Virus record (IMG/VR): IMGVR_UViG_3300032607_001425
Location: 38,120 to 102,119 of that record
DNA: 64,000 nt
Origin: a virus
Reading direction: 5' to 3' (one strand)
The notes under the pieces are model-generated. The model had not been told where the DNA came from, made no database searches, and saw nothing but the letters and a program-made list of their open reading frames with translations. This document shows, piece by piece, positions 24,955-34,763 of the stretch. The position numbers were made by a program, and so were the translations under genes. Every line of letters starts with the position of its first letter. Position 1 is the first letter of the stretch.

Positions 24955-25920
24955 TTAAATAAATTTTGATATATGAAACTCAATTAATTGTTGAGCTTTA
25001 GAAACATCCTCAACCCTAAGTTGTAAATTATTATCAGCGACTTTAGATAAAGTATCTAAATCTACCAATGTTACTGTGGAGAGTTGTGTTACATCGTGAT
25101 CTACGTTAGCAGGTACTGATAGATCGAGTATTAATTTTGGGTTGTTATCGATATTGTTTTTGTTTAGTATAGGTGTTTCAGCATTTGTAGCTACTATTAC
25201 TATGTCAGATACAAATATGTTTGCTTTTAGAGTATTGTAATGTGCTTTACCAACATGAAGTTCTTTTGAAAGTAAATCACTTACCTCCTCTGTCCTATTC
25301 ATTAATGTAATTTTAGTACAGTGGAGATAGTCGATTAAATTTTTACAAGTGCTTCTTCCCATCTTGCCCATACCTACTATTAGTATATTTTTAGTACTTG
25401 CATCTGGAATATTCTTTTTTATGTATTCAATGGCTACTGATGATACTGAGACTATTCCTTTACTTAGGTTAGTATTATTTTTAACTTGTCTTGAGATGTG
25501 GATGACTTTGTTAGTTATTTTTTCTAACTTTCCTCCTAATTTTTGTGCTGTTTTAGATTTATTAATAGCACTTTTTAGTTGACCTATTATTTCATAGTCA
25601 CCAAGTATTTGTGAATCTAATCCACATGCTACTTGTGAAAGATGTCTCAAAGCATCTTCCCTACTTTTTATATAACATTGATCGATAAAGTCATCCTTTG
25701 TTCCTTCTGTCTCAGAACATAGTAGTTCAATTAAACTATCAATACTAGGTCCATACCCATATATCTCAGTCCTATTACAAGTTGATAGAATAAAGAAGTT
25801 TGATAAGTTATTTGTAAGAAGTTTTTTGTACTTACTATCTGAGATAGAATATTTACCTCTTGTTAGTACATTTGATTTTTTATAATTAATTCCGCAAACA
25901 TGAAAATTACTTAACTCCAT
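24955..25920 (-). CDS. hemA: Glutamyl-tRNA reductase, short form
   Basis: A 321-residue GluTR that reduces glutamyl-tRNA(Glu) to glutamate-1-semialdehyde, the first committed step of C5 tetrapyrrole synthesis. The catalytic Cys is C48 in FILSTCNRTEIYGYG; CGLDSQILGDYEIIGQLKSA follows; the NADPH site is ILIVGMGKMGRSTCKNL (about residues 176-192). Bacterial GluTR is about 420 residues; here the C-terminal dimerisation domain is almost wholly missing, so it may rely on a different assembly. It is the third gene of the operon, 18 bp after the bilin reductase. A tRNA-Glu(TTC) is encoded at 30943-31014. Confidence 0.93.
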   Translation of the reverse strand: MELSNFHVCGINYKKSNVLTRGKYSISDSKYKKLLTNNLSNFFILSTCNRTEIYGYGPSIDSLIELLCSETEGTKDDFIDQCYIKSREDALRHLSQVACGLDSQILGDYEIIGQLKSAINKSKTAQKLGGKLEKITNKVIHISRQVKNNTNLSKGIVSVSSVAIEYIKKNIPDASTKNILIVGMGKMGRSTCKNLIDYLHCTKITLMNRTEEVSDLLSKELHVGKAHYNTLKANIFVSDIVIVATNAETPILNKNNIDNNPKLILDLSVPANVDHDVTQLSTVTLVDLDTLSKVADNNLQLRVEDVSKAQQLIEFHISKFI

Positions 25921-25938
25921 TTATGTTAATTTATAACT

Positions 25939-26583
25939 CTAGATCATAAGTTTGGGAAATAATACGTTAGTCATAAAATGTCTTGCTCGATCTTCCCCTA
26001 TCTTAGCTTTTAGCGCACTAAAAGTTCTTTCGTTTTTTGATTGATATTCACAATACTCGTTCTGCTTTATAAATATCTGTTGGAGTTGTTCTTGATCGGT
26101 TGTTTTATGTGCTTGACTATTTAGCTGGTCAAGGTATGTTTCAAATATATCAAATGCTAATTCAAATAACTTATCATGCTCTTCTGGTGTAGGTTTAACT
26201 GCTATAAATTGTTTTGAAAATATAGTAGCCCATACTGGAAGTTTTCTATCTGAATTCCATGTAGTAGTATGAAAATCTTGTTCAAATCCAATTGGAGATA
26301 GATCTAAAAATGCTCCACTTATTTGTTGACTCTTTTCAGAACATACTACATCAAATCCGAAAACTGGGGAGGCATCATTGCTATATGGGAAGCATGTTAT
26401 GTGGAGTACGAGTAAATTATCTTGAAAATACCTTTCAACATGAGCTAATCTAAAGTTTTTAGACTCGTACCTATAGTTTTCCCATCCAAACTCTTCTGTT
26501 TCCAGAAGAGCAGATTGGGGTTGATTTTCAATTAATTGTTTGAATTTTTCACTATGGTGAATAAGTTTACTGCGTAAGTCCAT
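25939..26583 (-). CDS. Ferredoxin-dependent bilin reductase, PcyA-like
   Basis: A 214-residue member of the PcyA/PebS/PcyX family, which reduces biliverdin to phycobilins using ferredoxin. The core reads FRLAHVERYFQDNLLVLHIT followed by CFPYSNDASPVFGFDVV and SGAFLDLSPIG. By eye, E50, H61 and D78 align with the PcyA catalytic Glu, His and Asp, whereas PebS has Asn at the His position; phycocyanobilin is therefore a possible product, but PcyX-type activity is not excluded. It is slightly shorter than PcyA (about 245). It overlaps the heme oxygenase gene by 17 bp. Confidence 0.9.
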   Translation of the reverse strand: MDLRSKLIHHSEKFKQLIENQPQSALLETEEFGWENYRYESKNFRLAHVERYFQDNLLVLHITCFPYSNDASPVFGFDVVCSEKSQQISGAFLDLSPIGFEQDFHTTTWNSDRKLPVWATIFSKQFIAVKPTPEEHDKLFELAFDIFETYLDQLNSQAHKTTDQEQLQQIFIKQNEYCEYQSKNERTFSALKAKIGEDRARHFMTNVLFPKLMI

Positions 26584-27097
26584 CTTCTAATTGTGCTAGG
26601 ATTGCCATATTAAAATCTAAAGCTTTATTTGCTTCATCAGCCCATTCATCTTTTTGTACCGCTCTAACTGCACCCATTGCTTCTCTCATATCTTCAAAAT
26701 CATACATCTTTCCACTTCCTGGTACTCTTTCTTTCATGATCTGTCCTCCGAACATTATAGCTAAATAATTTAGATAAACATGTGGTAGACGTTCAATTTG
26801 GTTTAATGTGTTTAAATACGTTGTGTACTGCTCAGTTGCTGGAAGTATTGCTAGTGGTCCTTCATATGCACCCTGTATATCTGATATTTCACTAATATCT
26901 GCAAATACTGCTTCTGTACGTTGTAAAGAAGGGTGTGGTAATGGAAGTGATTCTATTGTTTGAAAAATTGGAAGTAATTGGTATAGGTACGTTAAGTACT
27001 CTTGGTTGGTAAGTTCTCCTTTAGCCATTTTTTGATTGAAAGGCATTTTTTCTGCTTGAGAATGTTTTTGTTGAATTGCTTCTTTTAATGGTAACAT
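26567..27097 (-). CDS. Heme oxygenase
   Basis: A 176-residue biliverdin-forming heme oxygenase. The proximal His is H12 in KEAIQQKHSQAEKMPFNQKM; the distal helix has YLAIMFGGQIMKERVPGSG, matching the HO glycine-rich helix. I start it at 27097 (MLPLKEAIQ), 25 bp after the promoter; a longer in-frame start at 27226 would lie inside the upstream endonuclease gene. It opens heme to biliverdin IX-alpha, CO and iron, supplying the reductase encoded next. It is a little shorter than cyanobacterial HO1 (about 240). Confidence 0.93.
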   Translation of the reverse strand: MLPLKEAIQQKHSQAEKMPFNQKMAKGELTNQEYLTYLYQLLPIFQTIESLPLPHPSLQRTEAVFADISEISDIQGAYEGPLAILPATEQYTTYLNTLNQIERLPHVYLNYLAIMFGGQIMKERVPGSGKMYDFEDMREAMGAVRAVQKDEWADEANKALDFNMAILAQLEDGLTQ

Positions 27098-27122
27098 ATT
27101 TGTGTTTTTAAAATTTATACTT

Positions 27123-27153
27123 ATAATATACAAAAAAAGACTTGAATAAACAA
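27123..27153 (-). promoter_or_regulatory. Promoter of the bilin operon
   Basis: TTG (27153-27151), 20 bp, TATATTAT (27130-27123), 25 bp before the heme oxygenase ATG. An AAGACTTG/CAAGTCTT hairpin with T-run overlaps the spacer and can end the upstream endonuclease transcript, which stops 19 bp before the TTG. Confidence 0.72.
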
Positions 27154-27171
27154 GTCTTTCTGTAATTATTT

Positions 27172-27969
27172 TTAAAAAAATTTCCAAATAAATCCTCCTG
27201 CAGATTTTTTCTTCTCTAAAGCACACTGTGATATGTTACTTCCATCTACTTTTAAAGTGCTACTTGCTAATGATATTGAAGTCCATTTTTTAATAAACTC
27301 CCCCTCTAAAGAGTGTTGAAGTATTATTTTTGTATTGTAACCTCTTTCCCTTCTAGTAGCAGTCCGTTTTTGAAGGGATTCCTTAGAGTGTACTACTCCT
27401 TTTTTAGCTTTAGAGATATTACTTCTGTGTTCCTGGGTTATTGTTTTTCCTTTTTTAGCTTTTGATAGCTTGCTTCTGTGATCTTGAGTATGCTTCTTTC
27501 CTTTATTTGCTTTAGATATCTTAGTTGCATGTTCTTGTGTATGTTTTTTTCCACTATTAGCTTTAGACAATTTATCTTTAGTTTTTTGAGAGACTACTCT
27601 TCCTTTGCTAGATTTGGATATCTTCTCCTTTGTCTCATCTGAGTGTGTGTGGGGTATGCCCTCTGTACTAAAGCCTGTACTAGTTGCTTTACACTTATTA
27701 TAGAAATTGGCATTAACCCCTACATTAAACTTATTGTGTAGTTTAATTTCAAGTAGCATAGCCTCCTCTCTTGTATCAAATACGGAGACTATTTTTAATT
27801 TATAATTCTCAGGGTTATTCTTAAATAATTCTTTAAATTTTAAATTAGTAGAACTAGTAAAGTATTTTACTCCTAAATCATTCTCAGGACTGTCAGTAGA
27901 GCTTCTATACCCATAGTAGTGCTTGTTTTCTTGTATAGAGGTGACTCTGTATACGTAGTAGTATTTCAT
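27172..27969 (-). CDS. GIY-YIG-like endonuclease with NUMOD3 repeats and NUMOD1
   Basis: A 265-residue protein. The start at 27969 (MKYYYVYRVTSIQENKHYYG) follows the family B leader; a longer frame to 28005 would run into the leader hairpin. A degenerate GIY-YIG domain (YYVYRVT...HYYGYRS) is followed by five NUMOD3-type repeats, about 17-18 residues each, of the form THSDETKEKISKSSKGR / KKHTQEHATKISKANKG (residues 117-200), and a NUMOD1 end AGGFIWKFF. The repeats are near-identical at DNA level. It sits directly upstream of the bilin operon. Confidence 0.87.
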   Translation of the reverse strand: MKYYYVYRVTSIQENKHYYGYRSSTDSPENDLGVKYFTSSTNLKFKELFKNNPENYKLKIVSVFDTREEAMLLEIKLHNKFNVGVNANFYNKCKATSTGFSTEGIPHTHSDETKEKISKSSKGRVVSQKTKDKLSKANSGKKHTQEHATKISKANKGKKHTQDHRSKLSKAKKGKTITQEHRSNISKAKKGVVHSKESLQKRTATRRERGYNTKIILQHSLEGEFIKKWTSISLASSTLKVDGSNISQCALEKKKSAGGFIWKFF

Positions 27970-28085
27970 AATAAATAAAAAAGGAGAAATTAAAATACAC
28001 CACATGCAACATGGTATTATTTTAAAATCTCCGTAATATTTTTATCGAGTAGTTGCATTACCCTTTCTTTATTATAAATAGCAAC
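27970..28085 (-). ncRNA. Endonuclease-gene leader RNA, family B, copy 2
   Basis: TATTTATAATAAA (28080-28068), hairpin GTA/TAC with loop ATGCAAC (28058-28052), GGAGATTTTAAA, second hairpin loop GTTGCAT (28010-28004), outer GGAGA/TCTCC stem, T-run, ATG at 27969. The 7-nt loop pair is unlike the other copies but fully complementary. Confidence 0.75.
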
Positions 28086-28110: not shown

Positions 28111-28438
28111 AGTAAAAATGTTATCGGGAATAATAGTCATATAGACTAAATCAAAACCAAAATCAAAATCAAAGACCTTCTTCTTTTTAAAGACAAAGAC
28201 ACAGTCTAAGGCTCATTTTAATAGCTAGTTATCTTCCTCCATGAGGTTTAAGTAATCTATCTATACGTGAGTTCTATCTCAGTTTGTGATTTTTTAAGAA
28301 GAAGCGAGTTTACAAAGACCCGGAGGTCATTATGTCTGTAGTTGATTAGATATCAATTTATCATATATGTTTTTTAAAAACTACTCTTCCCGATACAAAG
28401 CTCTGAAGGATCAGCTTGTGCCTACCCCCTTAGCACCA
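28111..28438 (-). ncRNA. Unassigned structured RNA, about 330 nt
   Basis: No ORF fits here. Several perfect helices nest: TATCGGGAA/TTCCCGATA (28122-28130 with 28387-28395) encloses CTTCTTCTT/AAGAAGAAG (28177-28185 with 28296-28304), TAGTC/GACTA, GACC/GGTC with a 4-nt loop (28317-28328), and outside it AAGCT/AGCTT and GTGC/GCAC hairpins (28398-28436). An A-rich single-stranded stretch (28149-28173) is also present. Strand is inferred from the neighbours. It does not match tmRNA, RNase P or group I/II intron cores as I know them. It lies between a coiled-coil protein gene and an endonuclease leader. Confidence 0.55.
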
Positions 28439-28440
28439 AA

Positions 28441-29352
28441 TTATTTTAATTGATTCAAGAATTCATTCACTACATCCTGGAATCTCTCTGCTACTTCAAT
28501 TTTTAAATTGACAGCTTCTTGAATTCTACCTTGACGTGCTTCTTCAAACTCGTGTTGAGCTTTACGTTCTTCTCCAACCCACTTATCATACGCTAGTTTG
28601 TAAGTATTTGCAGCTTCCGAGTTTCTCTCATTCACGCTTGCTTGAATAGTACCTCTCTCTTTCTGAATTTTAGCATTCTCAGTAGTGACAGCATTTTTTA
28701 CTTTGGATTTAAAGTAATTTACTTTTTGCTCATACCCCCTATGCAAAGCTGCTAACTCTTCGTGAATTGTAAGTAAATAGGCAGGTGTGTGGTGAATTTC
28801 CACCTTAAGAGGTGTTTTTTTACCTACTTCAATCTCCATAAACTCTAAAGTTTTGATGGTAGGGAGTTCTGCTCTCAATCTATCCAATTTACCTCCCTTA
28901 TGGATAAACTGCCCAATATGAGATGCATAAGCCTCTGCTTCTAGGTATTCGTTATATTCAGCTGTAGATAAGGTATCCCAACCAAATTCTTCTCCTATTT
29001 CTGTAGGAATTGTTTCTGAAATAAGTTTTGGTCTCTCGGGAGATTCAATTTCATAATTGAATGATTCACGTTTGATTTTATTAATCAATTCGTCCTTAGC
29101 CTTGATGTTCTCCATCAAGAAGGCTTGAGTGGCAGATAATCTTGCTTTTGCTTGTAGCAACTGTACTACGTTTGCAGGGATTGGGTTCCCTTGAGTTTCA
29201 ATATAAGTCTCAGTTCCAATAGTTAATTCTTTTGAAACGTTGTTGATATCAGCCAATTGTGCTGTAATATCTTTTGAACGTTGATTACAAAGGTTTGAGA
29301 TTGATTGTGCTTGGGACATTGATAATCCTTTTGATGCTAATGAATTTTTCAT
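28441..29352 (-). CDS. Hypothetical coiled-coil protein
   Basis: A 303-residue protein with long charged helices, especially residues 215-300 (e.g. YKLAYDKWVGEERKAQHEFE), and no cysteine-rich or catalytic motif apart from one Cys. It may be structural or a scaffold. Own promoter at 29383-29413. Its stop codon abuts the structured RNA. Confidence 0.65.
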   Translation of the reverse strand: MKNSLASKGLSMSQAQSISNLCNQRSKDITAQLADINNVSKELTIGTETYIETQGNPIPANVVQLLQAKARLSATQAFLMENIKAKDELINKIKRESFNYEIESPERPKLISETIPTEIGEEFGWDTLSTAEYNEYLEAEAYASHIGQFIHKGGKLDRLRAELPTIKTLEFMEIEVGKKTPLKVEIHHTPAYLLTIHEELAALHRGYEQKVNYFKSKVKNAVTTENAKIQKERGTIQASVNERNSEAANTYKLAYDKWVGEERKAQHEFEEARQGRIQEAVNLKIEVAERFQDVVNEFLNQLK

Positions 29353-29382: not shown

Positions 29383-29413
29383 TAAATATACGAACAATAT
29401 TTTAGATATCCAA
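29383..29413 (-). promoter_or_regulatory. Promoter for the coiled-coil protein gene
   Basis: TTG (29413-29411), 20 bp, TATATTTA (29390-29383), 30 bp before the ATG at 29352. Confidence 0.7.
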
Positions 29414-30415: not shown

Positions 30416-30431
30416 AATGGATAAAATTTTG

Positions 30432-30505
30432 TGTCCTATACAGGATTCGAACCTGTGACCTTCTCGTTATGAGCGAGCTGCTCTAGCCAACTGAGCTAAA
30501 AGGAC
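30432..30505 (-). tRNA. tRNA-Met(CAT), elongator type
   Basis: Cloverleaf with anticodon loop CTCATAA; acceptor GTCCTTT/ATAGGAC (one T-T mismatch), T-loop TTCGAAT. Normal G1-C72 pair. No encoded CCA. Confidence 0.85.
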
Positions 30506-30512
30506 ATTCTAG

Positions 30513-30582
30513 TTGCGACCGGAAGATTCGAACTTCTCCTCAAGGTTATGAGCCTCGTATGCTACCTTTACACTACGTCGCG
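30513..30582 (-). tRNA. tRNA-Met(CAT), initiator-like
   Basis: Anticodon arm CGAGG-CTCATAA-CCTTG and acceptor CGCGACG/GGTCGCA, giving a C1-A72 mismatch, the hallmark of bacterial initiator tRNA. D-loop is short (70 nt in all). Confidence 0.7.
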
Positions 30583-30589
30583 ATGTTAG

Positions 30590-30667
30590 CTGACTAATAA
30601 GGATTTGAACCTTACTCCCCTACCTCCTTTAGATTCAGAGGTGGTGTGCACCATTACACCATAATCA
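30590..30667 (-). tRNA. tRNA-like, anticodon unresolved
   Basis: Acceptor TGATTAT/TTAGTCA, D-arm GTGT/GCAC and T-arm TAAGG-TTCAAAT-CCTTA are tRNA-like, but the anticodon stem ACCTC/GAGGT encloses 11 nt (TGAATCTAAAG) instead of 7. Decayed or unusual tRNA. Confidence 0.45.
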
Positions 30668-30717
30668 ATCGAGGTTTTCGAACACCTCAGTCATAGGTTA
30701 ATTACTCCTATGGTTTG
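30668..30717. other. Hairpin spacer in tRNA array
   Basis: Two perfect hairpins, GAGGT/ACCTC and CATAGG/CCTATG, fill the gap between two tRNA genes. Confidence 0.5.
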
Positions 30718-30789
30718 CGGTCTATGAGGGAATCGAACCCTCGCCTCTGACGTGACAAGCCAGTACTGCTACCATTACACAAATAGACC
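30718..30789 (-). tRNA. tRNA-Asp(GTC)
   Basis: Acceptor GGTCTAT/ATAGACC, anticodon loop TTGTCAC, T-loop TTCGATT, discriminator G. Confidence 0.9.
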
Positions 30790-30865
30790 AAATTACCTGT
30801 CTGTTCCAGGTTGTCAACTACTTACCAATTAGCCTCATTGGTCAATCCTCTTATAGTCGATTTTG

Positions 30866-30937
30866 TGGAGATATAGGGAATTGAACCCTAATTTATGATT
30901 TGCAAAACCATCGTAATAGCCATTATACGATATCCCC
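30866..30937 (-). tRNA. tRNA-Ala(TGC)
   Basis: Anticodon arm ATGGT-TTTGCAA-ATCAT; acceptor GGGGATA/TATCTCC contains the G3-U70 pair that marks alanine. Cys(GCA) reading would break the stem, and a clear tRNA-Cys is at 31648. Confidence 0.78.
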
Positions 30938-30942
30938 AATTG

Positions 30943-31014
30943 TAGCCCTGCTGGGAGTCGAACCCAACTTTTATGGATGAAAACCATATGTCCTAACCGA
31001 TAGACGACAGGGCC
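30943..31014 (-). tRNA. tRNA-Glu(TTC)
   Basis: Acceptor GGCCCTG/CAGGGCT, anticodon arm TATGG-TTTTCAT-CCATA, T-loop TTCGACT. Charged form is also the substrate of the glutamyl-tRNA reductase encoded at 24955-25920. Confidence 0.9.
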
Positions 31015-31020
31015 ATTTTG

Positions 31021-31094
31021 AGCAACATGCCGGTCTCGAACCGGCCTTATTCCACATTGGAAGTGTGGTGCCATACCTACTAGGCGAATGTTGC
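31021..31094 (-). tRNA. tRNA-Gly(TCC)
   Basis: Acceptor GCAACAT/ATGTTGC, anticodon arm CCACA-CTTCCAA-TGTGG, T-arm GCCGG/CCGGC. Confidence 0.9.
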
Positions 31095-31186
31095 AATTTG
31101 AGGTGGAGTTCCTCAGTGTTGCTAAGTTTACTTTTACTTAGTTATAATTACTAACATAATTCCTTTCTCAAGGGAACAACACTTTG
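31095..31186. other. Branched structured spacer in tRNA array
   Basis: AGTGTTG and CAACACT close a 3-way junction with inner hairpins CTAAGT/ACTTAG and CCTT/AAGG; another hairpin GAGG/CCTC lies beside it. Confidence 0.5.
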
Positions 31187-31259
31187 AGCTTCCTACCGGT
31201 CACGATCCGATAACCTCTTGTTTACAAAACAAGTGCTCTACCAATTGAGCTAAGGAAGC
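31187..31259 (-). tRNA. tRNA-Thr(TGT)
   Basis: Acceptor GCTTCCT/AGGAAGC, anticodon arm CTTGT-TTTGTAA-ACAAG. T-loop ATCGTGA is atypical. Confidence 0.87.
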
Positions 31260-31264
31260 AATTA

Positions 31265-31330
31265 ATTAGAATGGGTGTTCAAATCCCTTCTGCAGGTAGA
31301 ACCTGATGCTTTGCTATAAGCTAATTCTAA
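31265..31330 (-). tRNA. Degenerate tRNA-like cloverleaf, possibly Arg(TCT)
   Basis: A perfect 7-bp acceptor TTAGAAT/ATTCTAA and D-arm GCTT/AAGC, but the anticodon arm (CAG-GTTCTAC-CTG) is short and the T-arm is poor. Probably a decayed tRNA; only 66 nt. Confidence 0.4.
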
Positions 31331-31410
31331 TATTTTTTGTAGGCGACCAGTACTCCGATCCTTCTGCCCATTTAAGGAACTCATATCCACTTTAAGTGGT
31401 CCTACTATCG

Positions 31411-31486
31411 TACACCTGGTGGGAGTCGAACCCACAAAATCTTCTGATCCTAAGTCAGACGGCTTTACCAGTTTACCCACAGGTGC
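31411..31486 (-). tRNA. tRNA-Leu(TAG)
   Basis: Acceptor GCACCTG/CAGGTGT, anticodon arm TCTGA-CTTAGGA-TCAGA, T-arm GTGGG/CCCAC. Variable arm is short for a leucine tRNA. Confidence 0.82.
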
Positions 31487-31595
31487 AATTTTACCGCATG
31501 TGCGGTCACTTATCAATCGGTAGCTCCCTCTCGATATCCATCTGTGGGTGTAACACATTTGGTAGAGGGTCGACTCTTCAATGCTTTCTTATACT

Positions 31596-31626
31596 TAAAT
31601 ATACGAACTATATTTGTAATATCCAA
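31596..31626 (-). promoter_or_regulatory. Promoter inside the tRNA array
   Basis: TTG (31626-31624), 20 bp, TATATTTA (31603-31596); reads into tRNA-Leu(TAG) about 110 nt downstream. Confidence 0.7.
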
Positions 31627-31647
31627 GCTTTTTTAATTTATTTTTTG

Positions 31648-31719
31648 AGGGCCTCCAGAGAATCGAACTCTGAATCTCACATTTTGCAGACATGAAGCTT
31701 AACCATCAGCCTGAGGCCC
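31648..31719 (-). tRNA. tRNA-Cys(GCA)
   Basis: Acceptor GGGCCTC/GAGGCCC, anticodon arm CATGT-CTGCAAA-ATGTG, T-loop TTCGATT. Confidence 0.88.
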
Positions 31720-31808
31720 ATATTCACCTAGCCTGACCTTCCAGACAGTACAAGTCGAGATTAATTTGGCGCCTCGTTTTGTAGTAGGTGATTTATCTTT
31801 CTTATACT

Positions 31809-31839
31809 TAAATATACGACCTTTATTTGTAGTATCCAA
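31809..31839 (-). promoter_or_regulatory. Promoter upstream of tRNA-Cys
   Basis: TTG (31839-31837), 20 bp, TATATTTA (31816-31809), just after the HNH gene stop and 89 nt before tRNA-Cys. Confidence 0.7.
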
Positions 31840-31848
31840 CTTTTTTTA

Positions 31849-32355
31849 CTAGAAAAATAAAAATGTTTCCCATTCTTTTGGAATGTATGTTAACTGTTTT
31901 AGAAGCATCAAATAGTGTGGCCTTTTTGGTTCTACTATCTCTTTACCATATTCCTCAAGTGTTAAATCTGCTTTTTGTGAATTACAAGTTCTACAAGCTG
32001 TTACTAAATTATCCCAAGCATTTTCTCCACCTTTTGATTGTGGAATAACGTGGTCAAGTGTTAGTGACTTTACATAATTTGATCCACAATACACACATTC
32101 ATAGTTGTCTCTTTTATAAACATTTTCTCTTGTTAGAGGAACTTTCTGAATGTTTTGTTTTACATATTTGTAAACCCTAATAATTGAAGGTTTAAAAATT
32201 TCTAGTTTTGGATTTACTAATCCGAATGTTTCTGGATGTTCAGCTATTATTTCTGCATTACCCTTATACGAAATCACGAAAGCTCTTTCTGTGGAGATAA
32301 TGCTTCTTGCCATAAAGCTTGAATCAATTACCAGTGTTCTTTGGTGCTTACTCAT
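31849..32355 (-). CDS. HNH endonuclease, McrA-like
   Basis: A 168-residue protein with the classic HNH zinc form: CVYCG ... LTLDHVIPQSKGG (about residues 86-108) ... WDNLVTACRTCNSQKADLT. This type is common and chromosomal in Bacteroidota, unlike the NUMOD-bearing endonucleases elsewhere here, and lacks a leader element. It lies in the tRNA array between Trp and Cys genes. Could be a homing or a DNA-processing nuclease. Confidence 0.87.
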   Translation of the reverse strand: MSKHQRTLVIDSSFMARSIISTERAFVISYKGNAEIIAEHPETFGLVNPKLEIFKPSIIRVYKYVKQNIQKVPLTRENVYKRDNYECVYCGSNYVKSLTLDHVIPQSKGGENAWDNLVTACRTCNSQKADLTLEEYGKEIVEPKRPHYLMLLKQLTYIPKEWETFLFF

Positions 32356-32386
32356 GATTTTAATTTTTAATGAAACAATTTACTAG

Positions 32387-32458
32387 CACGCCTGGAAGGT
32401 TACGATCCCTCGATTTTGGGTTTGGAAGCCAATGTGTTACCAATTACACTACAGACGC
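32387..32458 (-). tRNA. tRNA-Trp(CCA)
   Basis: Acceptor GCGTCTG/CAGGCGT, loop TTCCAAA, discriminator G as in Trp tRNAs. One mismatch (C-C) at the top of the anticodon stem. Confidence 0.72.
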
Positions 32459-32556
32459 ATTTGTAGGATATCGTTTAACCTACTGTGAATGGCCTATTCA
32501 CCTTAATACTCTAAAGTTGCATCCTAAACGGGAAACTTTGGTATACGATTTTTTTG
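32459..32556. other. Three-hairpin spacer in tRNA array
   Basis: GTAGG/CCTAC, GTGAAT/ATTCAC and AAAGTT/AACTTT hairpins follow one another between two tRNA genes. Confidence 0.5.
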
Positions 32557-32628
32557 AACCCCTACCTGGACTCGAACCAGGACCAAAACGTTAGAAGCGT
32601 TTTATTCTTCCGATTAAACTATAAGGGC
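32557..32628 (-). tRNA. tRNA-Arg(TCT)
   Basis: Acceptor GCCCTTA/TAGGGGT, anticodon arm AAACG-CTTCTAA-CGTTT, T-arm CCTGG/CCAGG. Confidence 0.88.
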
Positions 32629-32788
32629 AAGTAAAATATAATTAGTAAGTTTTATCAGGAATCTGGGGTCTGATTTCTCAGTGCTTCACACACCCTTAGA
32701 GAGTTGAGTATAAATACTTGTCCTTAGTGTGTACCCTTGCGTAACGTCTCTCCACGTCTTCTTACCTACGATTTGTAATTATATTTTG
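32629..32788. other. Structured spacer in tRNA array
   Basis: A 12-bp helix AAAATATAATTA/TAATTATATTTT closes the whole 150-nt spacer, with inner helices such as CACACCCTTAG/CTTAGTGTG. No ORF. Confidence 0.5.
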
Positions 32789-32860
32789 AGGTCCTACCAG
32801 AACTCGAATCTGGATTCTATCGTTCGTAGCGATAAGTTTTTCCAATTAAACTATAAGACC
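32789..32860 (-). tRNA. tRNA-Arg(ACG)
   Basis: Acceptor GGTCTTA/TAGGACC, anticodon arm TATCG-CTACGAA-CGATA; A34 would need host TadA to become inosine. Confidence 0.9.
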
Positions 32861-32865
32861 ATTTG

Positions 32866-32944
32866 TATCCCTGACTGGAGTCGAACCAGCAAGCCTAGGC
32901 ATTTGGGCTTAAACCAAACGTGTTTACCATTTCACCACAGGGAT
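32866..32944 (-). tRNA. tRNA-Leu(TAA)
   Basis: Acceptor ATCCCTG/CAGGGAT, anticodon arm TTTGG-TTTAAGC-CCAAA, extra arm TGCC-TA-GGCT as expected for Leu. Confidence 0.9.
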
Positions 32945-33040
32945 GTAAAGCCAATCCCGTAGATTGGCAGCTCAACTTACGGTATTGAGTTTGAGGAAAC
33001 AAGTTCCTTACCACGTCCTTTACCCTTTGGGCACCGACAG
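32945..33040. other. Structured spacer in tRNA array
   Basis: Contains the perfect hairpin GCCAATC/GATTGGC and further short helices; no gene seen. Confidence 0.4.
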
Positions 33041-33113
33041 TGTGAAGGGTGGGACTCGAACCCACAATCGCCTGAACCACAATCAGGTGCTTTACCAATT
33101 CAGCTACAATCAC
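33041..33113 (-). tRNA. tRNA-His(GTG)
   Basis: Anticodon arm CCTGA-TTGTGGT-TCAGG, T-arm GTGGG/CCCAC. Acceptor GTGATTG/CCTTCAC has two mismatches and no clear G-1/C73 pair. Confidence 0.78.
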
Positions 33114-33194
33114 CATGTTAGTACCGAATACTAGTAACGATCTAGTCTAAGAGCGGATATGAGCCATTCTCGGTCCCTGACCATTCGATAATTG

Positions 33195-33279
33195 AGGAAA
33201 GAATGAGAATCGAACTCAATCCGGTTACCCGAACATCTCGCTTAGCAGGCGGACTCAACACCATGTTGACTTACTTTCC
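33195..33279 (-). tRNA. tRNA-Ser(GCT)
   Basis: Acceptor GGAAAGT/TCTTTCC, anticodon loop CTGCTAA (one stem mismatch), long extra arm TTCGG-GTAA-CCGGA. Confidence 0.83.
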
Positions 33280-33285
33280 ATTTTG

Positions 33286-33357
33286 TACTTCTAGGAAGAA
33301 TTGAACTTCCATTTCATCCTTATCAGAGATGTGTGCTAACCATTCTACTATAGAAGC
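33286..33357 (-). tRNA. tRNA-Ile(GAT)
   Basis: Acceptor GCTTCTA/TAGAAGT, anticodon arm CATCT-CTGATAA-GGATG. Confidence 0.88.
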
Positions 33358-33364
33358 AGTTTTG

Positions 33365-33436
33365 CTGGCCTGGAAGGAATCGAACCTTCATAAGATGATT
33401 AACAGTCATCCGTAATAGCCGTTATACGACAAGCCA
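33365..33436 (-). tRNA. tRNA-Asn(GTT)
   Basis: Acceptor TGGCTTG/CAGGCCA, anticodon arm GATGA-CTGTTAA-TCATC, discriminator G. Confidence 0.92.
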
Positions 33437-33441
33437 ATTTG

Positions 33442-33514
33442 TGGGGATTACAGGTTACGCTCCTGTCTCTCATGGGCTTCAACCATGCGCTTTCACTAGA
33501 TTAGCTTAATCCCC
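33442..33514 (-). tRNA. tRNA-Phe(GAA)
   Basis: Acceptor GGGGATT/AATCCCC, anticodon arm CATGG-TTGAAGC-CCATG; T-loop AGCGTAA lacks the usual TTC. Confidence 0.83.
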
Positions 33515-33526
33515 AATTTAATAAAG

Positions 33527-33597
33527 TGGGGCCGGTAGGAATCGAACCTACCCAGTGAGCTTTTACAGAGCTGCTCGGCACCTTGCCTGTCGTCCCC
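33527..33597 (-). tRNA. tRNA-Tyr(GTA)
   Basis: Acceptor GGGGACG/CGGCCCC, anticodon loop CTGTAAA with AGCT/AGCT stem. Extra arm is short for a bacterial tyrosine tRNA. Confidence 0.8.
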
Positions 33598-33602
33598 TTT
33601 TG

Positions 33603-33673
33603 TACCTCGTGATGGTTATGCTCCACCGCCTATTGCATGTAAAACAATTACGCTTCTATTACGCCAACGAGGC
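33603..33673 (-). tRNA. tRNA-Val(TAC)
   Basis: Acceptor GCCTCGT/ACGAGGT, anticodon arm ATTGT-TTTACAT-GCAAT. Confidence 0.85.
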
Positions 33674-33809
33674 AAATTTAATTCTATGCTCGCAATATGT
33701 AGCTCTATGAATTAATAACAATCTCATCTGTGTACCCCTCTCAGGTAATGATCCTGATTCCCGATATTAAAAGTATCGTGCTTCACCTTAAAGCTTGAAG
33801 GGCAGTTTG
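33674..33809. other. Structured spacer in tRNA array
   Basis: TTAATTC/GAATTAA closes one arm; CGATA/TATCG and CAGG/CCTG hairpins follow. No gene seen. Confidence 0.45.
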
Positions 33810-33882
33810 TCTAAGTGGGAGGGCTCAAACCTCCGGCCTCATGCTCCCAAAGCATGCCATCTACCAACTGATCTACACCTAG
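33810..33882 (-). tRNA. tRNA-Pro(TGG)
   Basis: Acceptor CTAGGTG/CACTTAG, anticodon arm CATGC-TTTGGGA-GCATG, T-arm GGAGG/CCTCC. Confidence 0.88.
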
Positions 33883-33896
33883 AAATCTAATTTTTG

Positions 33897-33968
33897 TTAC
33901 CCCTAATGGAATCGAACCACTACCGCATGGACCAAAACCATGTGTACTAACCGTTATACGAAGGGGCA
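33897..33968 (-). tRNA. tRNA-Gln(TTG)
   Basis: Acceptor TGCCCCT/AGGGGTA, anticodon arm CATGG-TTTTGGT-CCATG, T-loop TTCGATT. Confidence 0.9.
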
Positions 33969-33973
33969 AATTG

Positions 33974-34633
33974 TTACTTTATTTTTCTTCCTAATCTCCA
34001 TCCTTCCGGAATTAGATCTCCTTTGTATATTTTTTTATTTTCAACTTCATCTGTTATCCAACAAGTCCCGTATTGGGAATTATTAATTCCTTTTCCTAAA
34101 TCTCTTTCTTTTCTAGTATTTCTTATTTTTTGAAGAGTTTCAGGTTTATGTTTCTTGCCTTTCCAGGAATAGCATTCTGATATGTTGTTAAATTTCACTC
34201 CTCTTTCTTTTGCCTTTTTCTGACCTTTCCTAATTGCTTTGCAGTATTTTTCTCTAAATTCAGGATCTGTCTGTAAAAGTAGTGCTTTTGCTATATTTGC
34301 TGCTGCTCTTCCCTTTATTTTATTTTCTTCTGTGAAGCCTCCTGAACTTCCTTGTTTTAAATTTAAACAGTTTGAATTTTTTAAATCCTGTTCTGTTATT
34401 AAATTAATCTCAGCTTGAACTAATTCTTCTCTTGATTGAAATTGCTCCAGTATTTCTAAGTTAAAACTGTCTCTACCATACTTATTTAATTCGTAATACA
34501 ATCTTTTACCACTTCCCAAGTAACCGTCATCTATACGGTTAGTTGAATGCATTCCCAGGTAGTACCTGTTGTTTATAAGATTTGTAGTCCTATAGGTGAA
34601 ATGATACCTTTTATTCTCTTTGATGTTAGCCAT
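33974..34633 (-). CDS. GIY-YIG endonuclease with NUMOD3
   Basis: A 219-residue protein with a GIY-YIG variant (YHFTYRTTNLINNRYYLGMH), DDGYLGSGKRLYYELNKYG, a glycine-rich GSSGGFTEEN, a NUMOD3 unit WKGKKHKPETLQKIRNTRKE and a C-terminal NSQYGTCWITDEVENKKIYK found in other phage endonucleases. It is inserted between tRNA-Ser(TGA) and tRNA-Gln. A TATTTATAATAAA motif precedes it. Confidence 0.88.
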   Translation of the reverse strand: MANIKENKRYHFTYRTTNLINNRYYLGMHSTNRIDDGYLGSGKRLYYELNKYGRDSFNLEILEQFQSREELVQAEINLITEQDLKNSNCLNLKQGSSGGFTEENKIKGRAAANIAKALLLQTDPEFREKYCKAIRKGQKKAKERGVKFNNISECYSWKGKKHKPETLQKIRNTRKERDLGKGINNSQYGTCWITDEVENKKIYKGDLIPEGWRLGRKIK

Positions 34634-34641
34634 ATCTATTG

Positions 34642-34654
34642 TTTATTATAAATA
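34642..34654 (-). promoter_or_regulatory. Late-type motif upstream of endonuclease
   Basis: Minus strand TATTTATAATAAA, 8 bp before the ATG at 34633. Confidence 0.42.
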
Positions 34655-34677
34655 GGCTAACTTTTCAAAAAGTCTAC

Positions 34678-34763
34678 AGAAGAAGGCGTGAGACTCGAAC
34701 TCACAACGGTTTAACCCGCTACCACTTTTCAAGAGTGGCTCTTGATCCAGCCAGATCTTCTCC
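34678..34763 (-). tRNA. tRNA-Ser(TGA)
   Basis: Anticodon arm CCACT-CTTGAAA-AGTGG, long extra arm GCGGGTTAAACCGT, T-arm GTGAG/CTCAC. Acceptor ends are uncertain by 1-2 nt. Confidence 0.83.

Follow-up and report, generated by a model that had tools for sequence, protein, structure and literature searches.

A structured RNA directly downstream of the p303 gene

The window, by which we mean the whole analysed stretch of 64,000 nucleotides of viral DNA (IMG/VR record IMGVR_UViG_3300032607_001425), contains a structured RNA element that starts directly 3' of the stop codon TAA (28443-28441) of a gene for a protein of 303 amino acids, p303 (Table 1). All large genes around the RNA are coded on the minus strand. 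Between the RNA and a heme oxygenase gene lies a gene for a homing endonuclease, whose mechanical ORF start (28005) falls inside a hairpin and whose likely start is 27969. The heme oxygenase gene is adjacent to genes for glutamyl-tRNA reductase and ferredoxin-dependent bilin reductase, and the three form a phage-borne tetrapyrrole/bilin cassette in this Flavobacterium-type myovirus. Also, the window contains an array of 21 tRNA genes, interspersed with small ORFs, that covers most amino acids.

Table 1. Positions of the features at the p303-RNA locus in the window
Feature	Position	Strand	Remarks
Array of 21 tRNA genes	30431-34761	-	
Promoter-like motif	29383..29394	-	TTCGTATATTTA, exact copy; ~30 nt upstream of p303
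p303	28441..29352	-	303-aa gene; obligate upstream partner of the RNA
Structured RNA element (closing helix P1 to P1')	28112..28440	-	~325 nt; from homologue ends and covariation
P1, closing helix	5' strand 28437..28441, 3' strand 28116-28120	-	abuts p303 stop TAA
P2 hairpin	28400..28434	-	conserved head UAR-GC-ACAA-GC-YGAU
P3	5' strand 28387..28395 (UAUCGGGAA), 3' strand 28122-28130 (UUCCCGAUA)	-	9-bp helix; covariation
Variable A/U-rich arm between P3 and P6	28306..28386	-	clade-specific hairpins, no consensus fold
P6	5' strand 28296..28304 (CUUCUUCUU), 3' strand 28177-28185 (AAGAAGAAG)	-	covariation
P8 hairpin	28268..28281	-	UGAG-[AUAGAA]-CUCA, hexaloop near-invariant
P9 arm	28219..28266	-	conserved internal-loop sequences ..AGRUUAC..AUAAYU..
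J1	28186..28214	-	GAG-C-CUUAG, then hexamer-register U/G tract
J2	28139..28176	-	hexamer-register tract GUCUUUGAUUUUGAUUUUGGUUUUGAUUUAGUCUAUAU, G every 6 nt
Hairpin	27983..28032	-	GGAGAUUUUAAAAUA...UAUUUUAAUUUCUCC, then UUUUUUAUUUAUU; probable terminator of the p303-RNA transcript
GIY-YIG/NUMOD3 homing endonuclease gene	27172-27969	-	
Tetrapyrrole/bilin cassette	24955-27226	-	

Folding of the minus strand of the element gave -80.3 kcal/mol as compared with -67.1 +/- 4.3 kcal/mol for shuffled sequences (z -3.04) and none of 100 shuffles was as good, whereas the plus strand folded less favourably in relation to its own shuffles (z -2.01, 5 of 100 as good). The covariation model, the neighbouring genes and the direction of the homologues show that the RNA is transcribed from the minus strand. 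An earlier note on this DNA, made from the letters alone, had proposed a structured RNA of about 330 nt at 28111-28438, limits that match the closing helix P1 to within a few bases. Such an RNA is real, as its fold beats shuffles and its helices covary in relatives, but the note had left the strand unfixed and had missed the invariant link to p303 upstream. The A-rich strand that it described can be seen in the DNA, but the RNA lies on the other strand and the A-rich sequence is the complement of its U-rich junctions.

The Rfam search proposed in the note was performed with the covariance models of Rfam 15 on the window and 14 homologous loci and yielded no match at gathering score, the best sub-threshold scores being 13.7-20.7 bits against cut-offs of 38-70. 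No match was obtained with the models for tmRNA (also absent according to ARAGORN), RNase P RNA, 6S RNA or intron cores, none of which the element had seemed to resemble from the outset. A group I or group II intron was rejected on further grounds: there is no interrupted gene, p303 stops at the edge of the RNA and the gene that follows the RNA shows no conservation. We are confident that the RNA is real, and it constitutes a new family of structured RNAs when compared with Rfam 15 and with a partial coverage of the literature, in which no account of a p303-linked RNA was found and beyond which an unpublished or paywalled description is possible.

The RNA and p303 occur together

A protein search of IMG/VR with p303 yielded 80 loci, and blastn of the RNA against these loci detected it in most of them with 60-84% identity. 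In the relatives, similarity stops at the boundaries that the note had given, and the homologues at about 90 divergent loci share these end points. Independently of p303, a DNA pattern derived from the conserved 3' half of the RNA recovered 104 stretches of viral contigs and one contig of a bacterial MAG, and two deeper scans with p303 profiles added further, more divergent members. De-duplication left 126 distinct full-length RNAs, 91 of them below 90% identity. Among 362 loci, many of which represent pieces of one and the same contig, p303 is encoded in 331 and the RNA in 329. At the five p303 loci lacking the RNA the sequence ends 3-4 nt past the match, and the three RNAs lacking p303 begin at a distance of 4-86 nt from where their contig ends. 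The linkage is two-way, the p303 search and the RNA-pattern search each recovering the partner on every contig of sufficient length, and it is invariant, which is the link to one protein gene looked for in an OLE/OapA-like RNA-protein module. p303 is found near 112 of 117 distinct RNAs and the next neighbour families in about 30 loci; because only p303 is conserved as a neighbour, p303 and the RNA form a unit to which nothing else nearby belongs.

The p303 protein is full-length in 107 relatives and mildly acidic (median pI 5.8), and its AlphaFold2 model, obtained from an alignment of 54 sequences, is confident, with a mean pLDDT of 86.7, and mostly helical. Sequence searches of Pfam, PHROG and PDB detected no relative, and when the model was analysed with Foldseek no PDB structure matched at E<0.04. 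The sole structural match was A0A6J5N6M1, an uncharacterised protein from an uncultured phage. No RNA-binding domain or RNA-binding fold was recognisable in the domain and structure searches.

A search of 50,697 records of named phages detected no copy of p303 or of the RNA, the only matches being short and at chance level. The tail sheath protein of the window is 68% identical to that of Flavobacterium phage immuto, a phage that has neither p303 nor the RNA. The best explanation is that the RNA family belongs to large T4-like phages related to Flavobacterium myoviruses. One phage contig carrying the p303-RNA pair also contains a Hatchet ribozyme (L172:4453-4619, minus strand; 78.8 bits against a gathering score of 51). 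At two other loci (L064 and L061), ARAGORN detected stop-anticodon tRNAs upstream of p303 at about 1 kb from the RNA, which are possible suppressor tRNAs or possible signs of stop-codon reassignment.

Six helices covary in relatives

A six-helix model consisting of P1, P2, P3, P6, P8 and P9 was scored on a MAFFT alignment of 45 sequences. Paired cells amounted to 90.4%, as compared with 73.1% after shuffling and 37-50% in slid registers, and there were 413 double-sided compensatory cells (140 shuffled, 62-100 slid). Double-sided changes occurred in 38 of the 44 pairs (27 shuffled, 17-19 slid), and the covariation score was 0.530 (0.218 +/- 0.009 shuffled, 0.11-0.16 slid). Compensatory changes exceed those of the shuffled and slid controls, as they should in a conserved structured RNA. 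The note had set conservation of the helices in relatives as a test of its proposal, and they are conserved there with strong covariation. In an unsupervised covariation analysis of 47 sequences, the top ranks were taken by pairs of P2, P3, P6 and P9, and RNAalifold independently recovered most helices of the model and extended P3 to about 15 bp.

The two long-range 9-bp helices noticed earlier correspond to P3, with strands about 265 nt apart, and P6, with strands about 120 nt apart, and both show compensatory changes in relatives. In P3, 94.5% of cells are paired, all 9 pairs display double-sided changes and the helix attains up to about 15 bp in relatives, and in P6 such changes are found in 8 of 9 pairs. 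Of the cells of P9, 97.8% are paired, and 4 of its 5 pairs covary. Anchored pair counts in fixed registers, with up to 91 sequences, gave 98% pairing for P3 pair 8 (48% shuffled), 89% for P6 pair 9 (45% shuffled), 90% for P2 pair 8 (41% shuffled) and 96% for P1 pair 1 (52% shuffled). P1 reached 69% as compared with 35-47% in slid registers; the clade to which the window belongs has a weak P1, whereas P1 is strong in other clades. P8 is nearly invariant but retains its pairing when its sequence changes, from UGAG/CUCA to UAGG/CCUA at one locus (L044) and to UGGG/CCCA at another (L350). A divergent clade (L192, L299, L300 and L306) has a longer element (..GUUUCUGUUGGGGUUUAUAAUAAAACGACCA..) in place of the P8 hairpin. 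Near-invariant unpaired stretches in the alignment are the P8 hexaloop, the P2 head, and J1 and J2.

The RNA at the end of the p303 operon

The RNA abuts a stop codon: in 87 of 91 loci an ORF with a minimum length of 50 codons terminates at -13..+2 nt relative to the point where the RNA begins. In 17 loci p303 and the RNA are separated by more than 60 nt; the inserts are mostly co-directional small ORFs, few of them with a promoter-like motif, and the last inserted ORF ends at the edge of the RNA. Because the stop abuts the RNA even where other genes intervene after p303, the RNA ends the p303 operon, and it most likely makes up the 3' end of the transcript of this operon. At six loci (L004, L013, L018, L019, L024 and L002) ORFs of a family of about 90 amino acids (MNEVV...PSR.ECLRDYE..) are located between p303 and the RNA and in most cases share their terminal junction, AAAATAAT-TTGGT, with p303. 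At another locus (L302) an ORF of 468 amino acids occupies this place, and its reverse-frame translation is strongly repetitive.

The promoter-like motif upstream of p303 is common to several other small genes of the window phage, with 37 matches at up to two mismatches where 14.75 are expected. Because this consensus was present upstream of only 13 of 87 p303 genes, a transcription start at the motif is only tentative for the family as a whole. On the other side of the RNA, a terminator-like hairpin was detected within about 80 nt in 21 of 90 loci, as compared with 0.6 in shuffles. A tRNA gene is located within 2 kb of the RNA in 45 of 91 loci, and in four it lies 7-33 nt downstream. A riboswitch of the downstream gene was rejected, as the identity of that gene varies among loci and a terminator often separates it from the RNA.

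The main rival to a role of the RNA beyond the p303 message is a cis-acting 3'-UTR element that protects or regulates p303 mRNA, by way of decay, termination or feedback through p303 or a different protein, and that serves no other function. It would account for the constant position of the RNA at the 3' end of the p303 operon, where it adjoins the final stop codon and can take this codon into the 5' strand of P1, and for the lack of conservation downstream. However, an RNA of about 325 nt in which many unpaired stretches are near-invariant exceeds the needs of stability alone, the RNA no longer follows p303 directly in most loci with inserted ORFs, and J2 is not complementary to the start region of p303. 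We regard a purely cis-acting element as a serious possibility, although not as a probable one.

Two junctions share a hexamer register

In the family, J1 has the consensus GAGACUUAG-UUUUUG-UCUUUG-CCUUUG, which is degenerate in the window, and the J2 tract reads GUCUUUGACUUUGAUUUUGCAUUUGACAUAGUCUAUAU. Both tracts have a G every six nt and a U four nt later. In J2 this hexamer register runs through six consecutive G positions (0.9-1.9 bits), and a U lies four nt past each of the first five G (1.6-1.9 bits). Thermodynamic folding of single sequences left J1 and J2 each only about half unpaired. From the register, the simplest reading is suggested to be a single-strand array that would be read by a multimeric protein.

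A coding origin of the tracts, in which GNN and NUN codons would alternate as in an amphipathic beta strand, was considered and rejected. TTC occupies 2 of 241 Phe slots in J2 as compared with 407 of 987 (41%) in p303, and the J1-J2 reading frame is not kept (split 42:39:2); because TTC is nearly absent and the frame is not kept, the hexamer tracts are an RNA-level motif and non-coding. The same counts speak against the idea that the element is non-functional, being a degenerate coding sequence or, in view of the GIY-YIG/NUMOD3 gene that follows it in the window, an intron remnant beside a homing endonuclease gene. Covariation refutes this idea, no Rfam intron family matches, and the endonuclease adjoins the RNA in the window only, for which reason an endonuclease-linked RNA was also rejected; we give a non-functional element hardly any credence.

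An antisense interaction of J2 with the start region of p303 gave no signal (-15.3 kcal/mol against -17.5 kcal/mol for internal controls). The P2 head and codons 14-16 of p303 have the 8-mer AAGCACAA in common, and GCA is over-used at the Ala codon within it (59 of 77 against a background of 45%), but no meaning was attached to this sharing, as an 8-mer overlap is expected by chance and the p303 residues there are invariant.

The presence of the register in two tracts would also suit a trans-acting RNA with a partner from the host, whose UUUG-like arrays would titrate a single-strand RNA-binding protein of the host or base-pair with host RNA; the link with p303 would then reflect shared expression only. 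For the RRM protein RbpB from Bacteroides, however, a 41-nt motif is reported and a UUUG motif is absent from the paper (PMC11697453), and the constant company of p303 is left unexplained, so that we consider a host-directed RNA unlikely.

A proposed role as partner of p303

The two-way linkage, the covariation, the RNA-last gene order, the abutting stop codon, the terminators, the 6-nt motif and the downstream tRNA genes support an RNA-protein module in which the RNA would be the functional partner of p303. On the other hand, p303 is mildly acidic, and neither an RNA-binding domain nor a relative of its fold could be recognised. A cis-acting 3'-UTR element would show the same linkage, and J1 and J2 are just about half unpaired in single-sequence folding; we credit the module with somewhat less than an even chance.

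In the proposed module, the transcript would comprise a promoter, p303 (sometimes with inserted small genes), the RNA and then a terminator or tRNA genes. The RNA would probably persist as a stable species after 3' trimming, which RNase P might carry out at loci with a tRNA 7-33 nt downstream. The J1 and J2 tracts would be presented by a fold that has a P1-P3-P6 spine and the hairpin heads P2, P8 and P9, and the 6-nt register suggests that these tracts could offer an array of equivalent contacts to an oligomeric protein. The first candidate for such a binder would be p303, which is elongated and helical, and the second a host RNA-binding protein. Formulated in full, a two-component system in which an RNA of about 325 nt arises from the 3' end of the p303 message and is bound by p303 or its oligomer along the two hexamer tracts, as a novel ribonucleoprotein that large Bacteroidota-infecting phages would use during infection, is a tentative proposal that we hold to be possible rather than probable.

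GOLLD and ROOL are large structured phage RNAs without known function or established protein partner. The p303-linked RNA is compact, is represented by about 90 divergent loci, has never been seen without one orphan protein gene and contains a periodic motif in two junctions, and it looks like a new class of viral RNA with a built-in protein partner. As p303 and the RNA can be cloned as a unit of about 1.3 kb, binding, structure and phenotype are accessible to direct tests, which would make the role of large phage RNAs experimentally tractable.

Comparison with known systems

Bacterial sRNAs derived from 3'-UTRs are cut from the 3' end of an mRNA and end in a terminator. The p303-linked RNA would similarly come from an mRNA 3' end with a probable terminator, but it is far larger and has long-range closing helices and six covarying helices. 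TRAP is a ring protein that reads regularly spaced short single-strand motifs in the trp leader, its sites being (G/U)AG with a spacing of 2-3 nt in a 5' leader. A regularly spaced short motif is common to both systems, with J1 and J2 presumably single-stranded, whereas the p303-linked RNA, as a 3' element, repeats GNNNUU in register at 6-nt intervals within two of its junctions. No TRAP-like protein was identified for it.

GOLLD and ROOL, which the earlier note had mentioned as context and had not equated with the element, are often located near tRNA islands (PMC12286853). The comparison was apt, as the p303-linked RNA shows the same tRNA proximity in the 45 of 91 loci mentioned above and the tRNA array of the window starts about 2 kb away, and so was the caution, as neither Rfam model matched in the window or the 14 homologous loci. 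GOLLD shares with the p303-linked RNA that it is phage-borne, structured and often found by tRNA arrays, but many GOLLD RNAs exceed 800 nt (PMC12286853), there is no match in sequence or structure, and the obligate partner gene sets the p303-linked RNA apart. ROOL is likewise an elaborately folded RNA of phages or prophages with tRNA islands as neighbours, but for ROOL the authors note no protein partner (PMC12286853), whereas p303 is an obligate neighbour gene. An RNA-only assembly like the GOLLD and ROOL nanocages, or an RNA associated with tRNA arrays, would agree with a structured phage RNA near tRNA genes, but in view of these differences in length, model match and partner gene it is very improbable.

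OapA binds OLE RNA 2:1 (PMC12286853). OLE is a cellular RNA without sequence match to the p303-linked RNA, and OapA is a membrane protein whereas p303 is soluble-looking, helical and without detectable relative. Both systems nevertheless combine a structured RNA with a dedicated protein, p303 being a putative partner proposed from its invariant linkage.
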